NCBI RefSeq assembly: GCF_023516435.1 | Contig: NZ_CP097332.1 | Location: 4,030,001-4,094,000, forward strand | DNA from: Jatrophihabitans telluris | Lineage (GTDB): Bacteria > Actinomycetota > Actinomycetes > Mycobacteriales > Jatrophihabitantaceae | Reading direction: 5' to 3' | Length of the DNA stretch: 64,000 nucleotides | In this document: positions 42,098-48,066 of the stretch, in pieces | Numbering within the stretch: position 1 is the stretch's first letter | Layout of the letters: every line of letters begins with the position of its first letter | Notes under the pieces: model-generated | Told to the model about the DNA's origin: nothing | Databases searched by the model: none | The model's input: the letters and a program-made list of their open reading frames with translations, nothing else | Translations under genes and position numbers: made by a program

Positions 42098-44353
42098 TCA
42101 GTCGCCGGTCCGTGTCCTACGACGGCGAGCAAGGACCAGCAGGAATCCGCCAGCGGCCAGTAGCACAGCTGCCGAAGCGGCGAGGGTTCGTGCTGCCGAT
42201 CCCGTCCAGGCCAGCGACCCGGATCCGGTCGCGGGGTGGCCGTGGTGCCCGGAGTCGGTGCCTGTGCCGCTACCGGTGCCGGTGCCAGTGCCAGTGCCAG
42301 TGCCAGTGCCAGTGACGCTCGCGTCTGCGACGAGGATCTTCAGCGTCGACGGCTTCGAGGTGACCGGCTGGGCCGTCCCGGGTGGCGTGCCTTGCGCAAC
42401 CGCGGTGTCCTTGACCGAGCCGTGGTCGAGGTCGGCCTGCTGGACGGTGTAGGTCGCGGTGCAGGTCTCCGACTCACCCGAAGCGAGCGACGTCTGCGGG
42501 CAGGCGATCACCGACAACGACCCATCCAGGGCCGGCGACACCTGCGAATCGGTCACCGTGATGTTCGACATCGTCAGAGGACCGGTGTTGGTCACCAAGA
42601 ACTCGTAGGGAACTTGCTGGCCGACCGACGTGATGCTCGTCGTGGACGAGGACTTCACCACCGTCAATCCCGAATCGGTCAACGGTGTCACCGTCGGCGT
42701 GTACGTCGTCGTCGCCGGAGTGCCGTTCTTGTCCTGCTGCGTCACCGTGATCGGCGGTGCCGTCCCGATGAACGCCGGGTCGGGCGTGAAGATGATCGTG
42801 CCCGGGTTCACCGGGTCCTTGACGTAACTACCGATCGGTGTGCCGTCCTTGCTGACACTGATCGAGCCATCCGGGTTCGGCGTGTAGGAAACACCAGCAT
42901 CCGGGCTGGAGGGAACACCGATCGAGGTCGTCGAGGGATCCATCGGCGCCGACGGGTCACCTGGGGTGAACGTCGGCGTACCCGACTGCGGCTGACCCTG
43001 CGGACCGGTCGAGGTCGCCGGACTCGCCGTCGGCACGATCGGTGTATTCGTGAACGTACACATCACGTCCGACTCGGCATTGTCCGTAGGCATGGTGAAC
43101 GTTCCGGACGTCCCGGCACCGGAACCAAGCGGCGCGTTATTGTTCGCGCTGTCAACGCAGACCCACGACGCCGTGTAAGCAGCAAGATTTGCTCCACTCG
43201 CACCGGTCTCGCTGACGGTGTACGTCGTCCCACCAAGCCCGAGTGACGGGCCAGCGATCTCGGCATCGCTGTCGGCCTGCAGGCCGCTGTCGGTACCTTC
43301 GGTCGTTCCGATGTTCTCGCTCTGGATACCGCCGCCGGTGATGGTCATGGTGAACTGATCGGCCGTTGCGGCACGCCCGCTCGGAAGATCCTTCTCGGCC
43401 GAAATCAACTTCGGATAGGAACACGTACCAAGATCGACCGCACCAGGGCTCAACGGGAACCCGTCCGTGTTTGAAACCGATCCGTCGGCAGGACTGACGC
43501 TGAGCACAACCCCGTCCCCTTGAACGGCCTGTCCTTTCACCGTTCCCGTGACGGTGATGGCGAGGCGGCCGTTGCCGTCGAAGGCAATGCCGTTGTACGC
43601 GCCACCTTCGTCGGGCATCATGGCGATTTGCCTCGGCGCCAGCACTGTCGTACCGGCCGTAGTGGGCATTGGCGCGCGGTAGCGGACCAAGGGGCCGGGC
43701 GGGTAGGTGAGGTCGGTGGGGCTGGCCACGTACCCATTGCTTACAGCGTAGAGGTTTCCCCGGGGGTCGAAGGCGATGTCACCGTTGCTGTAGAGCCCAG
43801 CCAAACTGCCGACCTGCCCGATGAAGGTGTCGGTGTTGGTGTCGAATCCGTAGAGCGGCCACGGCACGGGATCTGTCGTGTTTCGGTCATCCGCATGGTT
43901 CCCGGCCTGCGCGAGGTAGTAGATCCCGTTCGCCGGGTTCAAGGCTCCGCCAACAATGCCTCCACCGGCGGCGGGATCGATAGCAATCGGGAAGTCCGTG
44001 CTGGTGCCCGCCTGAATGTCGTACCGGTGCACGCTGCCGGCGCCGAAATACCATGCGTACTGGCCACCGCCGGAGGGCAACGCCAGCGCATTGTTAGCCG
44101 AACGCACTGCGTTCGCGATCTGACCCACCGTCGTGTAGGCACCGGTGCTGGAGTCGATTTGATAGAACGCACCGTCGACGCTCAGCGCGTACACGGTATT
44201 TCCGCCACAGAGAAAGGCCGGTGTATCGGCGTGCGCCTTCGCAGGCCGAAATACGGAAAGCACCGTGAGCGCCATCAAAAACACCGCGATCAACACGAGG
44301 TAGCGGCGCCTGAACGCCTCGACCGCGATCGCGAACGCACGACGGTTTTCCAT
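42098..44353 (-). CDS. large cell-surface protein with beta-propeller-like, DUF11-like domains and LAxTG sorting signal
   Basis: A 751-aa exported protein. An N-terminal hydrophobic signal (about residues 15-40) is followed by a domain of about 280 residues with repeated YxFDTNTDTF / GDIAFDPRGNLYAVS units, like DUF6923-type beta propellers. Next are a prealbumin-like segment, a Pro/Thr/Ser linker, an FTPDPAFIG fibril-type repeat, and a DUF11-like domain (YEFLVTNTGPLTMSNITVTD). A run of Thr-Gly dipeptides, encoded by hexamer repeats near 42258-42315, precedes LAWTG (714-718), a membrane helix and RRRRTRTGD. LAxTG is the motif used by class E sortases in actinobacteria. ATG at 44353 with GGGGAG upstream. 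Confidence 0.82.
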   Translation of the reverse strand: MENRRAFAIAVEAFRRRYLVLIAVFLMALTVLSVFRPAKAHADTPAFLCGGNTVYALSVDGAFYQIDSSTGAYTTVGQIANAVRSANNALALPSGGGQYAWYFGAGSVHRYDIQAGTSTDFPIAIDPAAGGGIVGGALNPANGIYYLAQAGNHADDRNTTDPVPWPLYGFDTNTDTFIGQVGSLAGLYSNGDIAFDPRGNLYAVSNGYVASPTDLTYPPGPLVRYRAPMPTTAGTTVLAPRQIAMMPDEGGAYNGIAFDGNGRLAITVTGTVKGQAVQGDGVVLSVSPADGSVSNTDGFPLSPGAVDLGTCSYPKLISAEKDLPSGRAATADQFTMTITGGGIQSENIGTTEGTDSGLQADSDAEIAGPSLGLGGTTYTVSETGASGANLAAYTASWVCVDSANNNAPLGSGAGTSGTFTMPTDNAESDVMCTFTNTPIVPTASPATSTGPQGQPQSGTPTFTPGDPSAPMDPSTTSIGVPSSPDAGVSYTPNPDGSISVSKDGTPIGSYVKDPVNPGTIIFTPDPAFIGTAPPITVTQQDKNGTPATTTYTPTVTPLTDSGLTVVKSSSTTSITSVGQQVPYEFLVTNTGPLTMSNITVTDSQVSPALDGSLSVIACPQTSLASGESETCTATYTVQQADLDHGSVKDTAVAQGTPPGTAQPVTSKPSTLKILVADASVTGTGTGTGTGTGTGSGTGTDSGHHGHPATGSGSLAWTGSAARTLAASAAVLLAAGGFLLVLARRRRTRTGD

Positions 44354-44500
44354 AATTGTTGCTCCCCTGGCTGAGTGGGGGGCCGGAGCCCAGGGCAAAC
44401 GGGAGCGCGGGGGGCGCTCCCTCTGCTACCTGGACGGACCACTCGCGGGGCTGTGTCGCAGAACCTCACACCGAATTTCTAGGAGCCAAAAACCGCGTGG

Positions 44501-44722
44501 CTAGCCTTCGACCGAAAGCCGCAGCGCCAAGGCGGGACAGACGCTGACCGCACGGCGGACGTCGCCACCCGACTGCTCGGTCAACCGCCGCTCATCGATA
44601 ACCGGATAGCCCCAATCGTCGAGGGAAATCGCATCCGGCAGCAAGGCCGCACACAAGCCGTGCCCATCGCAACGGCTCCAGTCGATGGTCAGCCCGGTCG
44701 GCGTCGAGGAAGGGGACCTCAT
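44501..44722 (-). CDS. ferredoxin ([3Fe-4S]-type)
   Basis: A 73-aa small ferredoxin with C18 and C24 in CDGHGLC and C62 in VCPALAL. Three cluster Cys with an alanine-like gap in the first motif indicate a [3Fe-4S] or modified [4Fe-4S] centre, like the P450-type ferredoxins of actinobacteria. Here no P450 gene is near. Its ATG overlaps the stop of the NuoF-like gene (ATGA at 44719-44722), so it should accept or supply electrons for that flavoprotein. It is the last gene of the five-gene operon. Confidence 0.88.
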   Translation of the reverse strand: MRSPSSTPTGLTIDWSRCDGHGLCAALLPDAISLDDWGYPVIDERRLTEQSGGDVRRAVSVCPALALRLSVEG

Positions 44723-46047
44723 CGGCCTTTCCTTCCAGCGGCGATGCGGAACGCGGCAGCCCGCGACAGGGGCAGGTCGCCGGCGTCGACGCGTCCGCAC
44801 CCGCCGAGCTGGCGGTGCCGGGCAACCTCGTCAGCCAATACCCGCAGGCCGCTCAGCACGAACCTGGAGGCCCCGTCCGGATGAGCGCAAGCACCACGCC
44901 CGCGTACCAGGGAGGCGTGCCTGGTAGCGAGAGTCGCGTCCGTTCGCCCAGCCGTCAGCGCGGTGAGATCGTCCACCAACGCGGGGAGCCCGAACGCACA
45001 CGGTCCGCACTGCCGAGCCGACTGGCCGGCCAGCCATTGAGCGACCCGGGTCAGCTCGGCGAGGCCGCAGGTGTGCTCACCGAGGAAGGTCAGCGCGCCG
45101 GCGCCGAGGGTGCCGCCAGCCGCGGCGAGCTCCACACGCCCCAGCACCAGGGCGGGGTCCGCGTCCAGCCACGCGCCGTGGAACCCACCGACGACGACCG
45201 CCTGGCTGCGAGCGGCGCCGACCACCTCGGCCACCGCCCCCACGCTGATCCCGTGCGGCACTTCGAGCACCGCCGGACGGGCCACCGCGCCGGTCACGGT
45301 CAGCAAGGTCGTACCAGGCTCGTTTGCCGTTCCCTGCGCGGCGAACGCGGGTGCCCCGACCCGAACCAGGCGTGCAAGCTGGGCGTAGGTCTCAGCGTTG
45401 GACAGCAGCGTCGGCCGCCCATCGACGCCGCGAACGGTGGGGATCACGCGCCGCCCCGGCGGCAACGCAGGCTCGCCATTCAATCCGGCGACGAGGGCAC
45501 GGGCCTCACCGCTGACGAAGTGATCCGGCAGCGTGTGCAGCTCGAACCGGCCTGCGTCCGGACGTCCGCGCAGCGCCTGGCTCAGTCGTACGCGGAGACT
45601 GACGTCGGTGACGGCGACGACGATTCGGTCCGCGCCGATGGCCTCGGCGACGATCGCGGCGCCGTCGAGAACCAGGTGCGGCACGGAGCCGAGCAACAAC
45701 AAGTCCTTCGCACTGGACGGCTCACCCTCACACCCGTTGACCACCACCACCGGACGCCGGCCGCCCTGCGGGTTGCTGAGGGAACGCAGCTTGCGCGCCA
45801 ACGGAAACGCGGCACCTCCGCGGCCGACCAGAGATACCTGGTCGAGCAGGTCCAGCAGCTGCGCGGTGCTCGGCGAACCGAATGCCTCGTGCTCGGCGAG
45901 GTGTTGCCGGTAGTCAGTGAGGTCGCGGCGGTCGATTCCGCGCAGCAGCTGGGGCTGTCCGAGCCAGCCCACCGGAATGGCCCCACTGTCGAACTGAGCC
46001 GCGGCGCCCGACGACGCCACCGGGGCAGGATCAAGCACGGCGGTCAT
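44719..46047 (-). CDS. NuoF-like flavoprotein (NADH-binding 51-kDa subunit/SLBB type)
   Basis: A 442-aa homologue of the NADH-dehydrogenase flavoprotein subunit outside any nuo operon. The FMN/NADH site is GRGGAAFP (75-82) and NGCEGEP (104-110). An SLBB-type ubiquitin-like domain is followed by a C-terminal cluster region with SARQCGPCAFGLPAL and RGACAHPDGASRF giving the [4Fe-4S] Cys ligands. The start is decided by AGAAGAGGAG before the ATG at 46047; an ATG at 46074 that overlaps the upstream stop is the alternative. It probably passes electrons from NAD(P)H to the ferredoxin or to the membrane heme protein encoded just upstream. Confidence 0.85.
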   Translation of the reverse strand: MTAVLDPAPVASSGAAAQFDSGAIPVGWLGQPQLLRGIDRRDLTDYRQHLAEHEAFGSPSTAQLLDLLDQVSLVGRGGAAFPLARKLRSLSNPQGGRRPVVVVNGCEGEPSSAKDLLLLGSVPHLVLDGAAIVAEAIGADRIVVAVTDVSLRVRLSQALRGRPDAGRFELHTLPDHFVSGEARALVAGLNGEPALPPGRRVIPTVRGVDGRPTLLSNAETYAQLARLVRVGAPAFAAQGTANEPGTTLLTVTGAVARPAVLEVPHGISVGAVAEVVGAARSQAVVVGGFHGAWLDADPALVLGRVELAAAGGTLGAGALTFLGEHTCGLAELTRVAQWLAGQSARQCGPCAFGLPALVDDLTALTAGRTDATLATRHASLVRGRGACAHPDGASRFVLSGLRVLADEVARHRQLGGCGRVDAGDLPLSRAAAFRIAAGRKGR

Positions 46048-46070
46048 GAACAGCTCCTCTTCTCGCAGGG

Positions 46071-46691
46071 TCATACGGAAACGTGGTGGTGGGCCCGAGC
46101 GGGTCGGGACGTCAAGGCGGCTGGTGCGATCGTGCTCCGGCGCCCGAGCTGCGGACGGTCGGACAACCGCGCCAGCACACCGGCCGCGACGACCGAGCTG
46201 CCGGCGACCAGGACGGCGCGAGCCCACCAGGTTCCCGAGTCGCTGCCGGTGAACAGGAAGTGTCCGGCCGTCAGGACCCACGCCACGTAGGACAGCAGGT
46301 GGACACCACGCCAGGCCCGGACCCCTTTAGCCGACTGAGCAAATCTCGATCGCAACGCTCCGGTGACCGATACGGCGACCAGTAGATACAGACCGAGAAC
46401 GCCCAGGCTCACCGGCCACGGCCGGTAGCCGGACGTCATCGGGACCAAGGCGCCGATCCAGCCGACCCGGGCGTAGGAATCGGCGAGAATGAAGGCGATG
46501 TGGGCGATCAGCAGCGTTACGCCGGACAGTGCCGCCGCACGGTGCACGTACTGCAGCACGATTCTTCTGGACAGGGCACCCCGTCCCGGCATCGAGGTAC
46601 GCCTGGCCGCGAATGCGCCGAGACCGGTGGCCACACTCAACGCAGCGAATGCCGCCAGACCCGCGCCTCGAGCCAGGTACCAGGTCAGCAC
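46071..46691 (-). CDS. ferric-reductase-like b-type heme membrane protein
   Basis: A 206-aa protein with about six membrane helices. Two pairs of His residues, H50/H64 and H131/H144, are spaced 13-14 residues apart in two helices, the arrangement of bis-His heme b ligands in ferric reductases, NADPH oxidases and YedZ/MsrQ. There is no FAD/NAD domain on the same chain, so electrons must come from a separate protein, likely the NuoF-like one. The GTG at 46691 overlaps the apbE stop by 7 bases. Confidence 0.82.
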   Translation of the reverse strand: MLTWYLARGAGLAAFAALSVATGLGAFAARRTSMPGRGALSRRIVLQYVHRAAALSGVTLLIAHIAFILADSYARVGWIGALVPMTSGYRPWPVSLGVLGLYLLVAVSVTGALRSRFAQSAKGVRAWRGVHLLSYVAWVLTAGHFLFTGSDSGTWWARAVLVAGSSVVAAGVLARLSDRPQLGRRSTIAPAALTSRPARAHHHVSV

Positions 46692-47662
46692 GGCCAGCCA
46701 CCGATCGTGACGACCGACCCCTCGCGGTCGATCAGGCGCGCAGCGACGCCCTGACCGGCCAGCCAGGCCAGCGCTTCGTCGCCGAGGACGAGGGCCGAGG
46801 TTGAACAGGTGTTGGCGTGCACGGCCGATTCGGCAGCGACCGTCGCCGTTCGCCAGCGTCCGGAGACCGGGTTACCCGTCGCAGGATGGACGATATGGCT
46901 GACCTCGCGCCCCGCCCGTGTCCAGCGCCGAATCGTGGTGGTCGAGGTCGCCAGGCCACCGGCCCCGAGAGTGACCTGCTGACCGGGCGCATCGACCCGC
47001 TCGCCGACCCGTACCTGCCAGTCACGTTTGGTCCCGGCGACGGCCAGGTCTCCGCCGATCTCGACGAGCACGCTGCACCCGTACCGGTCCCGCAGATCGG
47101 CCGCGGCCCAGTCGGCGGCCTGCGCCTTCGCGCTCGCGCCGAGATCCAGCGACACACCCGGAGGCACGGTCAGCAGGCCGCTGAACGGGTCGAGCCGGAC
47201 GTCGCCCCAATCCGTTCGACGCCGGTCCACGGTGGTCGCCGTGGCACTGATCCGGCCGGCGCGCATAGCCAGCGAGGGCCGTGCGGCGACCTCGTCGGAG
47301 GAGTCCATCACGAAGTGGATGTCCCGGTCGTAGCCCAGCCGGACGAGGTCACGTCCCACGGTGGGATCAAGAGCCCCATCGGAGCGCCGCGCCTCGGTGA
47401 GCGCGGTCTCCATCAGATGCACCATCGTGCGGGAAATCGCCACCGGACGTCCGGCGTTGATGTTGGCCCAGTTGATCTCGGACTCGGTCAGGAACCGGCT
47501 TGCCGCCCGTTCGACCCGATTCATCAGGGCGCGCACGTCGTTGACCGCCGGCTCGAGAGCCTTCGCGTCGGTGACGACGACGCGGACGAGGCAACTCCAG
47601 TCGCTCCAGGTGGCGGTCGGCAGGCTCGCCTGCGGGACCCTGGAAATCACCGATGCAGTCAT
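46685..47662 (-). CDS. apbE: FAD:protein FMN transferase (ApbE)
   Basis: A 325-aa flavin transferase that links FMN through phosphate to Thr/Ser in target proteins. Family segments: RVERAASRFLTESEINWANI near residue 50, SDGALDPTVGRDLVRLGYDR, LDLGASAKAQAAD (FAD-binding), LVEIGGDLAVAG and HIVHPATGNPVSG. No lipobox is visible, so it may be cytoplasmic or exported by another route, although most ApbE proteins act outside the membrane. It is coupled by ATGA to the upstream STSTG-repeat protein and overlaps the heme-protein gene. No gene for a canonical FMN-binding-domain target is in the operon. Confidence 0.88.
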   Translation of the reverse strand: MTASVISRVPQASLPTATWSDWSCLVRVVVTDAKALEPAVNDVRALMNRVERAASRFLTESEINWANINAGRPVAISRTMVHLMETALTEARRSDGALDPTVGRDLVRLGYDRDIHFVMDSSDEVAARPSLAMRAGRISATATTVDRRRTDWGDVRLDPFSGLLTVPPGVSLDLGASAKAQAADWAAADLRDRYGCSVLVEIGGDLAVAGTKRDWQVRVGERVDAPGQQVTLGAGGLATSTTTIRRWTRAGREVSHIVHPATGNPVSGRWRTATVAAESAVHANTCSTSALVLGDEALAWLAGQGVAARLIDREGSVVTIGGWPC

Positions 47663-48066
47663 GATCCGTTGCTCCCGCCGTTGGTCTGCTGATTGCTGTT
47701 GCCGCTGGACACCGATGAACCGCCCGTGGACGCCGCCCCGGTGCTGGTCGAGCCCGTACTGGTCGAGCCCGTGCTGGTCGACCCCGTGCTGGTCGAGCCG
47801 GTGCTGGTCGAGCCGGTGCTGGTCGAGCTCGATGCGCTGGCGGACCCGGTGGCCGTGTCGCTGGGGCTGCTGCTCGTGGGAGCCGCGCTCGAGGTCGTAC
47901 CGGAGGTCGTGCCCGTCGTCGATGCTCCCGATCCGCTGGCATTCTGGGTCGCGGCGGCCTGTTCCACGAACAAGCCGAACGCGGCCGCACTGGCGGCAAT
48001 GACGCCACCGATGGCCAGCTTGATGCGCCGGTTGAGCGAGACTGGGGAGTGTCCGGAGTTGTTCAT
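47659..48066 (-). CDS. small membrane-anchored or secreted Ser/Thr-rich protein with STSTG repeats
   Basis: A 135-aa low-complexity protein, first gene of the redox operon. Residues 1-16 are polar/basic, 17-40 form one membrane or signal helix (LAIGGVIAASAAAFGLFVEQ), and the rest is Ser/Thr/Gly/Ala with six STSTG units encoded by six 15-bp DNA repeats (47741-47830). No domain is recognised. A short SGAST sequence at residues 46-50 resembles the core of ApbE flavinylation sites (SGAT in NqrC/RnfG), though the usual upstream Asp and FMN-binding domain are missing. Coupled to apbE by ATGA. Confidence 0.75.
   Translation of the reverse strand: MNNSGHSPVSLNRRIKLAIGGVIAASAAAFGLFVEQAAATQNASGSGASTTGTTSGTTSSAAPTSSSPSDTATGSASASSSTSTGSTSTGSTSTGSTSTGSTSTGSTSTGAASTGGSSVSSGNSNQQTNGGSNGS
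47741..47830. repeat. 15-bp tandem repeat, six units, in the STSTG protein gene
   Basis: Six units of GTGCTGGTCGAGCCC or close variants with exact 15-bp period. On the minus strand each encodes Ser-Thr-Ser-Thr-Gly in frame, so copy-number change would lengthen or shorten the exported tail without a frameshift. Confidence 0.9.

Follow-up and report, generated by a model that had tools for sequence, protein, structure and literature searches.

A conserved C-terminal serine motif of exported disordered proteins as a candidate ApbE flavinylation site in actinobacterial electron-transfer operons

In a 64,000-nucleotide stretch of Jatrophihabitans telluris DNA (contig NZ_CP097332.1, positions 4,030,001 to 4,094,000; this whole stretch is called the window below), five genes on the minus strand form an operon that encodes, in order, an exported low-complexity "tail" protein (the product of gene 1), an ApbE, a two-heme membrane protein, a NuoF-like flavoprotein and a ferredoxin. 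Comparison with homologous operons indicates that the conserved element of gene 1 is the C-terminus of its product, and that this ending resembles the ApbE motif [S/T]GA[S/T]. The ApbEs encoded beside such tails carry Asn or Glu at the place of a conserved Asp, and we refer to them as Asn-type and Glu-type enzymes, and to those that keep the residue as Asp-type. We propose that Asn- and Glu-type ApbEs attach flavin mononucleotide (FMN) to the Ser at the very C-terminus of a fully disordered peptide before that peptide is exported, which would give Actinomycetota a domain-free "flavin on a string" to convey electrons outward from the membrane; we put the probability of this reading at about 0.6. 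For the window itself, we think it quite likely that the operon lays out an outward electron path ending in FMN carried on the C-terminal Ser of the gene 1 product, with the rest of that product as a flexible tether.

Conserved ending of the tail proteins

The survey of homologous operons that the preliminary description of this DNA had proposed was built on a model of the NuoF-like subfamily. Of 296 Actinomycetes genomes, 126 had a match to this model at E ≤1e-60, a few of these matches being near ordinary NuoF scores. From these, 100 stretches were taken and, together with other loci, gave 105 loci with a NuoF-like gene, 71 with an apbE on the same strand and 34 without. When frames located upstream of apbE were picked by their hydrophobic stretch, without regard to the motif, 59 loci yielded a protein. 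Of these proteins, 56 are tails, every one with the conserved ending, two are histidine kinases (loci L110 and L122) and one is an FMN_bind protein (L099). Inspection by eye of the region before apbE, made in knowledge of the motif, added four further tails (L092, L094, L153 and L164), and a motif filter found those of L120 and L122, located after the ferredoxin. Tail genes are thereby present in 62 of the 71 apbE loci. In six others the contig breaks off at apbE or shortly before it (L044, L075, L081, L084, L087 and L108), and the remainder are L099, L110 and L137, the last with a shifted tail after the ferredoxin (GGGSGGSG). Across the Actinomycetota, then, a low-complexity protein with a transmembrane (TM) segment accompanies this kind of ApbE. 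No tail was found in the 34 loci without apbE; six of these are pieces of <5 kb, so that some of the 34 may have lost apbE or the tail to a contig end.

Thinning to ApbEs no more than 80% identical left 59 tail proteins. In all 59, the rightmost match to [ST]x[GA][ST] lies no more than four residues from the C-terminus, whereas 2000 shuffles gave 13.2 ± 3.0 such proteins and at most 24; the motif lies exactly at the C-terminus in 47 of 59, against a shuffle mean of 2.9 and maximum of 10. Internal four-residue words of the tails match the same pattern at 5%. Of the 49 tails that end exactly at the motif, 26 have Ala at position −6 and 14 have His at −7. The proteins are 70 to 302 residues long as called, have an N-terminus of net charge +2 or more in 52 of 59 cases and continue, after the hydrophobic stretch, as sequence rich in Ser, Thr, Gly, Ala and Pro with 0.6% aromatic residues past residue 50. 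A search of all 59 for FMN_bind gave no match. The features of the window protein are as follows.

47659..48066, minus strand: gene 1, exported tail protein of 135 residues (predicted), one N-terminal hydrophobic stretch followed by Ser/Thr/Gly-rich disorder
47959..48024, minus strand: hydrophobic segment, about residues 15–36, signal peptide or anchor, conserved in L009–L011
47917..47931, minus strand: SGAST, residues 46–50, the site proposed in the preliminary description, not conserved
47737..47826, minus strand: six STSTG repeats, residues 81–110, not conserved in relatives
47662..47673, minus strand: C-terminal SNGS followed by the stop, residues 132–135, an ending of the [ST]x[GA][ST] form and the proposed flavinylation motif
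47662-47664, minus strand: codon of Ser135, proposed FMN acceptor; the last alignment column is Ser at no less than 90%

The window protein ends NGGSNGS, and its close relatives at L009–L011 end NGGSNGS or NGGSHGS; between these proteins the middle differs in length and sequence while the end is constant. The preliminary description had cast gene 1 as an unstructured ApbE substrate modified at the internal SGAST, a sequence that matches [ST]GA[ST] exactly and in this respect better than SNGS does. However, SGAST is missing from L009–L011, internal [ST]GA[ST] occurs in only 6 of the 59 tails and at scattered places, and the C-terminus is conserved in every one of them, so that attachment of FMN to an internal Ser or Thr appears very improbable. 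As far as sequence comparison can tell, that description was probably right about the role of gene 1 and wrong about the site. Its STSTG repeat is present in six units, which read as a linker and are not shared by the relatives. The protein is Ser/Thr-rich, as had been noted, and has a hydrophobic stretch, but its anchoring in the membrane is uncertain because a signal-peptidase (AxA-like) site, defined by a loose pattern, follows that stretch in 56 of the 59 relatives.

Evidence against an overlap effect at the DNA level

Since gene 1 overlaps the start of apbE, the motif might have arisen because the start codon of apbE and its ribosome-binding site lie over the end of gene 1. Indeed, 41 of the 59 tail genes end in ATGA or GTGA, and in the window the GGGAG codes for part of GGS. 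Nevertheless, 18 of the 59 lack such an end, and in L120 (two copies), L122 and probably L137 the tail gene comes after the ferredoxin. In addition, five different Ser codons are used at the last place (TCA 19, TCG 17, TCC 9, AGC 3, AGT 1). These non-overlapping cases already largely refute a Shine-Dalgarno or start-codon origin, which we now find hardly credible.

When low-complexity TM proteins were collected without regard to the motif, the ending was present in 56 of 66 on the operon strand of apbE loci, 1 of 9 on the opposite strand and 0 of 4 among the 34 loci without apbE. The ten operon-strand proteins that lack it are the second, mostly acidic-ended proteins of Glu-type operons. These second TM and low-complexity proteins occur in L007, L083, L085, L089, L093, L100, L102, L143, L150 and L155; eight of the ten end acidic (...DD), whereas those of L083 and L085 end in SAGG and GSGGD.

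ApbE types and their partners

The window ApbE matches PF02424 with 149 bits, and its structural model finds the ApbEs of Thermotoga maritima and Treponema pallidum and Listeria FmnB in Foldseek at E values of 5e-19 to 2e-17. Spacing and alignment equate its Ser240, His256 and Asn284 with Ser241, His257 and Asp285 of the Vibrio cholerae enzyme, which are three conserved ApbE residues according to the relevant part of a review (PMC12052999). In Escherichia coli ApbE the corresponding Asp280 is given as a ligand of the metal site together with Thr284 (PMC4767422, in the portion cited). The conserved trio is therefore incomplete in the window enzyme, in which the Ser and His are kept and the Asp is replaced.

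46685..47662, minus strand: apbE, predicted Asn-type FAD:protein FMN transferase (FAD, flavin adenine dinucleotide), PF02424, ATGA overlap with gene 1
46811..46813, minus strand: codon of Asn284, the residue found instead of the conserved catalytic/metal Asp (Asp285 in V. cholerae, Asp280 in E. coli)

The type of ApbE goes together with the kind of partner. A separate sample, drawn by PF02424 alone, gave 86 matches in 54 of 88 genomes, of which 60 were fetched, leaving out 18 in already analysed loci and 8 others; the 60 comprise 43 Asp-type, 11 Asn-type and 6 Glu-type enzymes. FMN_bind proteins, identified with a two-seed model (45 open frames; a one-sequence model gave two and was not used), are present at 40 of 43 Asp-type loci and at 0 of 17 Asn/Glu-type loci. 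Filtered tails are found at 0 of 43 Asp-type loci and 7 of 17 Asn/Glu-type loci, the latter rising to 10 of 17 after reading by eye, which was applied to Asn/Glu loci only and added three: L176; L170, where one residue follows SHGS; and L175, with a longer secreted protein that has SHGS at its end. Also, a PF04205 search found no FMN_bind gene in the ten genomes whose examined ApbEs are all of Asn or Glu type (G029, G064, G070, G079, G090, G092, G103, G105, G111 and G122).

The ending itself varies with the ApbE type. Asn-type partners have the motif exactly at the end in 42 of 43 cases, mostly as SGGS, SNGS, SSGS or similar. By our count, 9 of 15 Glu-type tails have TGAS, the published motif, followed by 0–4 residues. 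Ala in the motif is seen in 4 of 43 Asn-type versus 12 of 15 Glu-type tails (p 7e-7, uncorrected for phylogeny); of all 58 typed rows, 16 have Ala as the third motif residue. In a quick ApbE tree the Asn type forms one group (Shimodaira–Hasegawa-like approximate likelihood ratio test 100) and the Asp type another (93), with the Glu type in several places, a grouping which implies that the tail habit is old or has arisen more than once. L099 is of interest here: its Asn-type ApbE is nested among those of tail loci and an FMN_bind protein takes the place of the tail. At this locus (L099:3884-4894 and 1734-2219) the FMN_bind first gene has a long Pro/Thr linker and a separate tail gene lies nearby on the opposite strand.

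It is important to set out what speaks against flavinylation of the tails. The main point is the replaced Asp. Of 72 rows of operon ApbEs, 53 have Asn and 17 have Glu at this place, one is unreadable, and the single Asp is that of the L006 FMN_bind partner; a transferase changed in this way could have lost its activity or work differently. Second, an N-terminal hydrophobic stretch is absent from the tail-type ApbEs (59 of 59), as it is from Asp-type actinobacterial ApbEs (42 of 43); the window ApbE thus looks cytosolic while the tail should face outward, and the FMN would need to pass the translocon. Third, the Asn-type endings are mostly SGGS, SNGS or SSGS, not [ST]GA[ST], and the upstream Asp of the motif is mostly absent. 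Fourth, the pairing has gaps: seven of the 17 sampled Asn/Glu loci have no tail (L171, L174, L179, L180, L181, L183 and L185), L110 shows none either, and L099, which lies outside the separate sample, pairs an Asn-type ApbE with FMN_bind. Finally, PF04205 overlooked FMN_bind proteins in G084, G085, G096 and G119 that our own model found, so the lack of FMN_bind from a genome is not absolute.

The first of these points invites the interpretation that the ApbE is a pseudoenzyme which binds FAD without transferring FMN and acts as a cytosolic flavin carrier or scaffold, with the C-terminus of the tail docking on it or serving otherwise. Replacement of the catalytic/metal Asp in every readable operon ApbE, Lys at a neighbouring metal ligand in 18 of 23 Glu-type enzymes and the lack of an FMN_bind target in the operon are all in keeping with this. 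On the other hand, across 46 ApbE sequences the catalytic His256 never varies and Ser240 hardly does, and Asn or Glu is retained by type, which does not look like decay of the enzyme. Furthermore, the conserved ending resembles an acceptor site of ApbE, and in the TGAS-bearing Glu-type tails it matches one exactly. On balance, we consider a pseudoenzyme unlikely and favour transfer of FMN to the tail.

Other apbE systems in the genome

The J. telluris genome has three apbE genes. One, near 2.99 Mb, is part of a further operon like that of the window (L007: tail, apbE, heme protein, NuoF-like protein and ferredoxin). Another, near 3.995 Mb, directly follows the sole FMN_bind gene found by PF04205 in this genome and a gene for a 462-residue protein whose sequence looks like that of a complete ferric reductase. 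The preliminary description had named a canonical FMN-binding target elsewhere in the genome that coevolves with this apbE as evidence that would count against gene 1. A canonical FMN_bind protein does exist, about 80 kb from the window operon, but it stands beside its own, different, Asp-type ApbE, and we rejected it as a distant target of the window enzyme. DUF2271 and DUF3570 were not found in the genome.

Ser/Thr-rich exported proteins of actinobacteria are often O-mannosylated. The tail could accordingly be a substrate of glycosylation, proteolysis or cell-wall attachment, with the ApbE acting on a target encoded elsewhere, for example the FMN_bind protein of this genome, and PMT_2-type mannosyltransferase domains are found in 2 of 90 flanking proteins scanned across the surveyed operons. 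However, the tails track the presence of apbE and not that of the rest of the operon, the FMN_bind protein has an ApbE of its own, and the ten genomes listed above yield no FMN_bind gene with PF04205. Another modification of the tail, with the flavin going elsewhere, seems to us quite improbable.

Electron-transfer proteins of the operon

The operon was described previously as five genes with overlaps at most junctions, and this holds with overlaps at all four (4, 7, 4 and 4 bases from gene 1 down). Pfam assigns the ApbE, the NuoF-like protein and the ferredoxin firmly and gives no match for gene 1 or the membrane protein; the same scan finds no FMN_bind domain in the operon, as had been claimed. 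The remaining genes are these.

46071..46691, minus strand: predicted two-heme membrane protein, ferric-reductase/MsrQ-like, GTG start, His50/His64 and His131/His144
44719..46074, minus strand: predicted NuoF-like NAD(P)H-FMN-FeS flavoprotein (reduced nicotinamide adenine dinucleotide (phosphate) to FMN to iron–sulfur), Complex1_51K and NADH_4Fe-4S
44501..44722, minus strand: small ferredoxin, Fer4_15, CxxHxxC...CP

The bis-His heme membrane protein of the preliminary description is borne out to the extent that all four His residues are invariant in 50 homologues and form two conserved pairs in a TM bundle, from which heme binding is predicted. The spacing of the pairs (x13 and x12) is presumably that of NOX and ferric reductases. 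Ferric_reduct (PF01794) matches 36 of the 50 homologues, the window protein itself not being among those matched; its model (mean predicted local distance difference test score 90.6) has NOX5, DUOX1 and STEAP as its nearest heme proteins, with weak Foldseek E values (>0.1). The NuoF-like protein matches the Complex1_51K and 4Fe-4S domains and scores far below the NuoF equivalog cutoff. Of 104 sequences of its subfamily, 102 have Ala in place of the first CxxCxxC cysteine and 103 keep a Cys near the C-terminus (C426); with the first Cys lost and the other kept, the Fe-S cluster is probably held differently. At the third-ligand place of the ferredoxin (CxxHxxC), 52 of 102 relatives carry His and most of the remainder have Arg, Val or Phe, a ligand pattern which we take to be that of three-Cys actinobacterial ferredoxins.

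Discussion

It is informative to consider how such an operon might work. From the families of the proteins, NAD(P)H would reduce the NuoF-like flavoprotein, and the ferredoxin would relay the electrons to the two-heme membrane protein, through which they would cross the membrane. The ApbE would move FMN from FAD onto Ser135 of the gene 1 product before or during export; modification before export is suggested by the missing N-terminal hydrophobic stretch of tail-type and Asp-type actinobacterial ApbEs, and the disorder of the tail would permit flavinylation to precede export. Carried on the tip of a long, inert arm, the FMN would be reduced by the outer heme and would hand electrons to acceptors outside the cell. 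The acceptor is possibly iron, VIT1 being found in 3 of the 90 flanking proteins, and the same link is reported in part of a published survey of flavinylation (PMC8238504). The gene 1 tail would then be a natural C-terminal flavin tag in place of an FMN_bind domain.

The closest known relatives of this arrangement appear to be the MsrQ-like flavinylation clusters, which that survey (Meheust et al. 2021, PMC8238504), in the sections cited, places mainly in Actinobacteria, 31 of them with a NuoF-like protein. They share with the window operon a two-heme protein of the ferric-reductase type, apbE and a NuoF-like donor, but typically encode an FMN-binding-domain protein where a disordered tail protein is found here. 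A terminal ApbE motif is also the basis of the engineered flavin tag (Tong et al. 2021, as summarised in part of PMC12052999), in which the seven-residue motif D-x-x-[ST]-G-A-[ST] suffices, works best at a terminus and tolerates replacement of its Asp by Ala with minor effect. The tail therefore fits what ApbEs can do, although the engineered tag carries Asp and Ala and the natural tails are mostly without the Asp and often have Gly for the Ala. In the fumarate reductase of Leptomonas and Trypanosoma (PMC8065229, relevant passages), FMN is attached to Ser9 of a motif that, like the tail ending, is terminal, ends in Ser and has relaxed middle residues; unlike the tails, that motif is N-terminal, shares one polypeptide with ApbE-like and reductase domains of its own, and is not exported. 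Likewise, FMN_red proteins are described, in the portion cited, as bearing flavinylation motifs on an unstructured C-terminal extension (PMC11334425). As with the tails, the motif there sits on disordered sequence, but the extension adjoins the flavin site of a folded domain and the tails have no folded domain.

A description of flavin-carrier tails such as these was not found in the open-licence PubMed Central papers searched. ApbE flavinylation is already known; it is the proposed substrate class that is new, and if the proposal is correct the tails would be, to our knowledge, the first natural ApbE substrate without a folded domain. Covalent flavins could then serve as tethered shuttles without a binding pocket, and the endings might provide a shorter, Asp-free flavin tag. 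The tails would also account for some "orphan" apbE genes, the substrates of which remain unidentified according to the cited part of the flavinylation survey (PMC8238504).

Some further observations concern the surroundings of these genes. In the flanks of the surveyed operons, 10 of the 90 scanned proteins have histidine-kinase ATPase domains, which suggests two-component control; we also considered flanking genes as a clue to the acceptor and set them aside, as the 90 proteins include no clear acceptor. The 34 of 105 loci that have a NuoF-like gene, usually with the heme protein and/or ferredoxin, and neither apbE nor tail include L088, L096, L109, L111, L113–L115, L118, L128, L129, L135, L136, L140 and L142, and secreted or lipoprotein-like genes are seen near L113, L136 and L140. 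Just downstream of the window operon, positions 42098-44398 encode a large secreted protein with a (GT)n-rich stretch, a C-terminal hydrophobic segment and a basic tail, a product that looks like a cell-surface protein.

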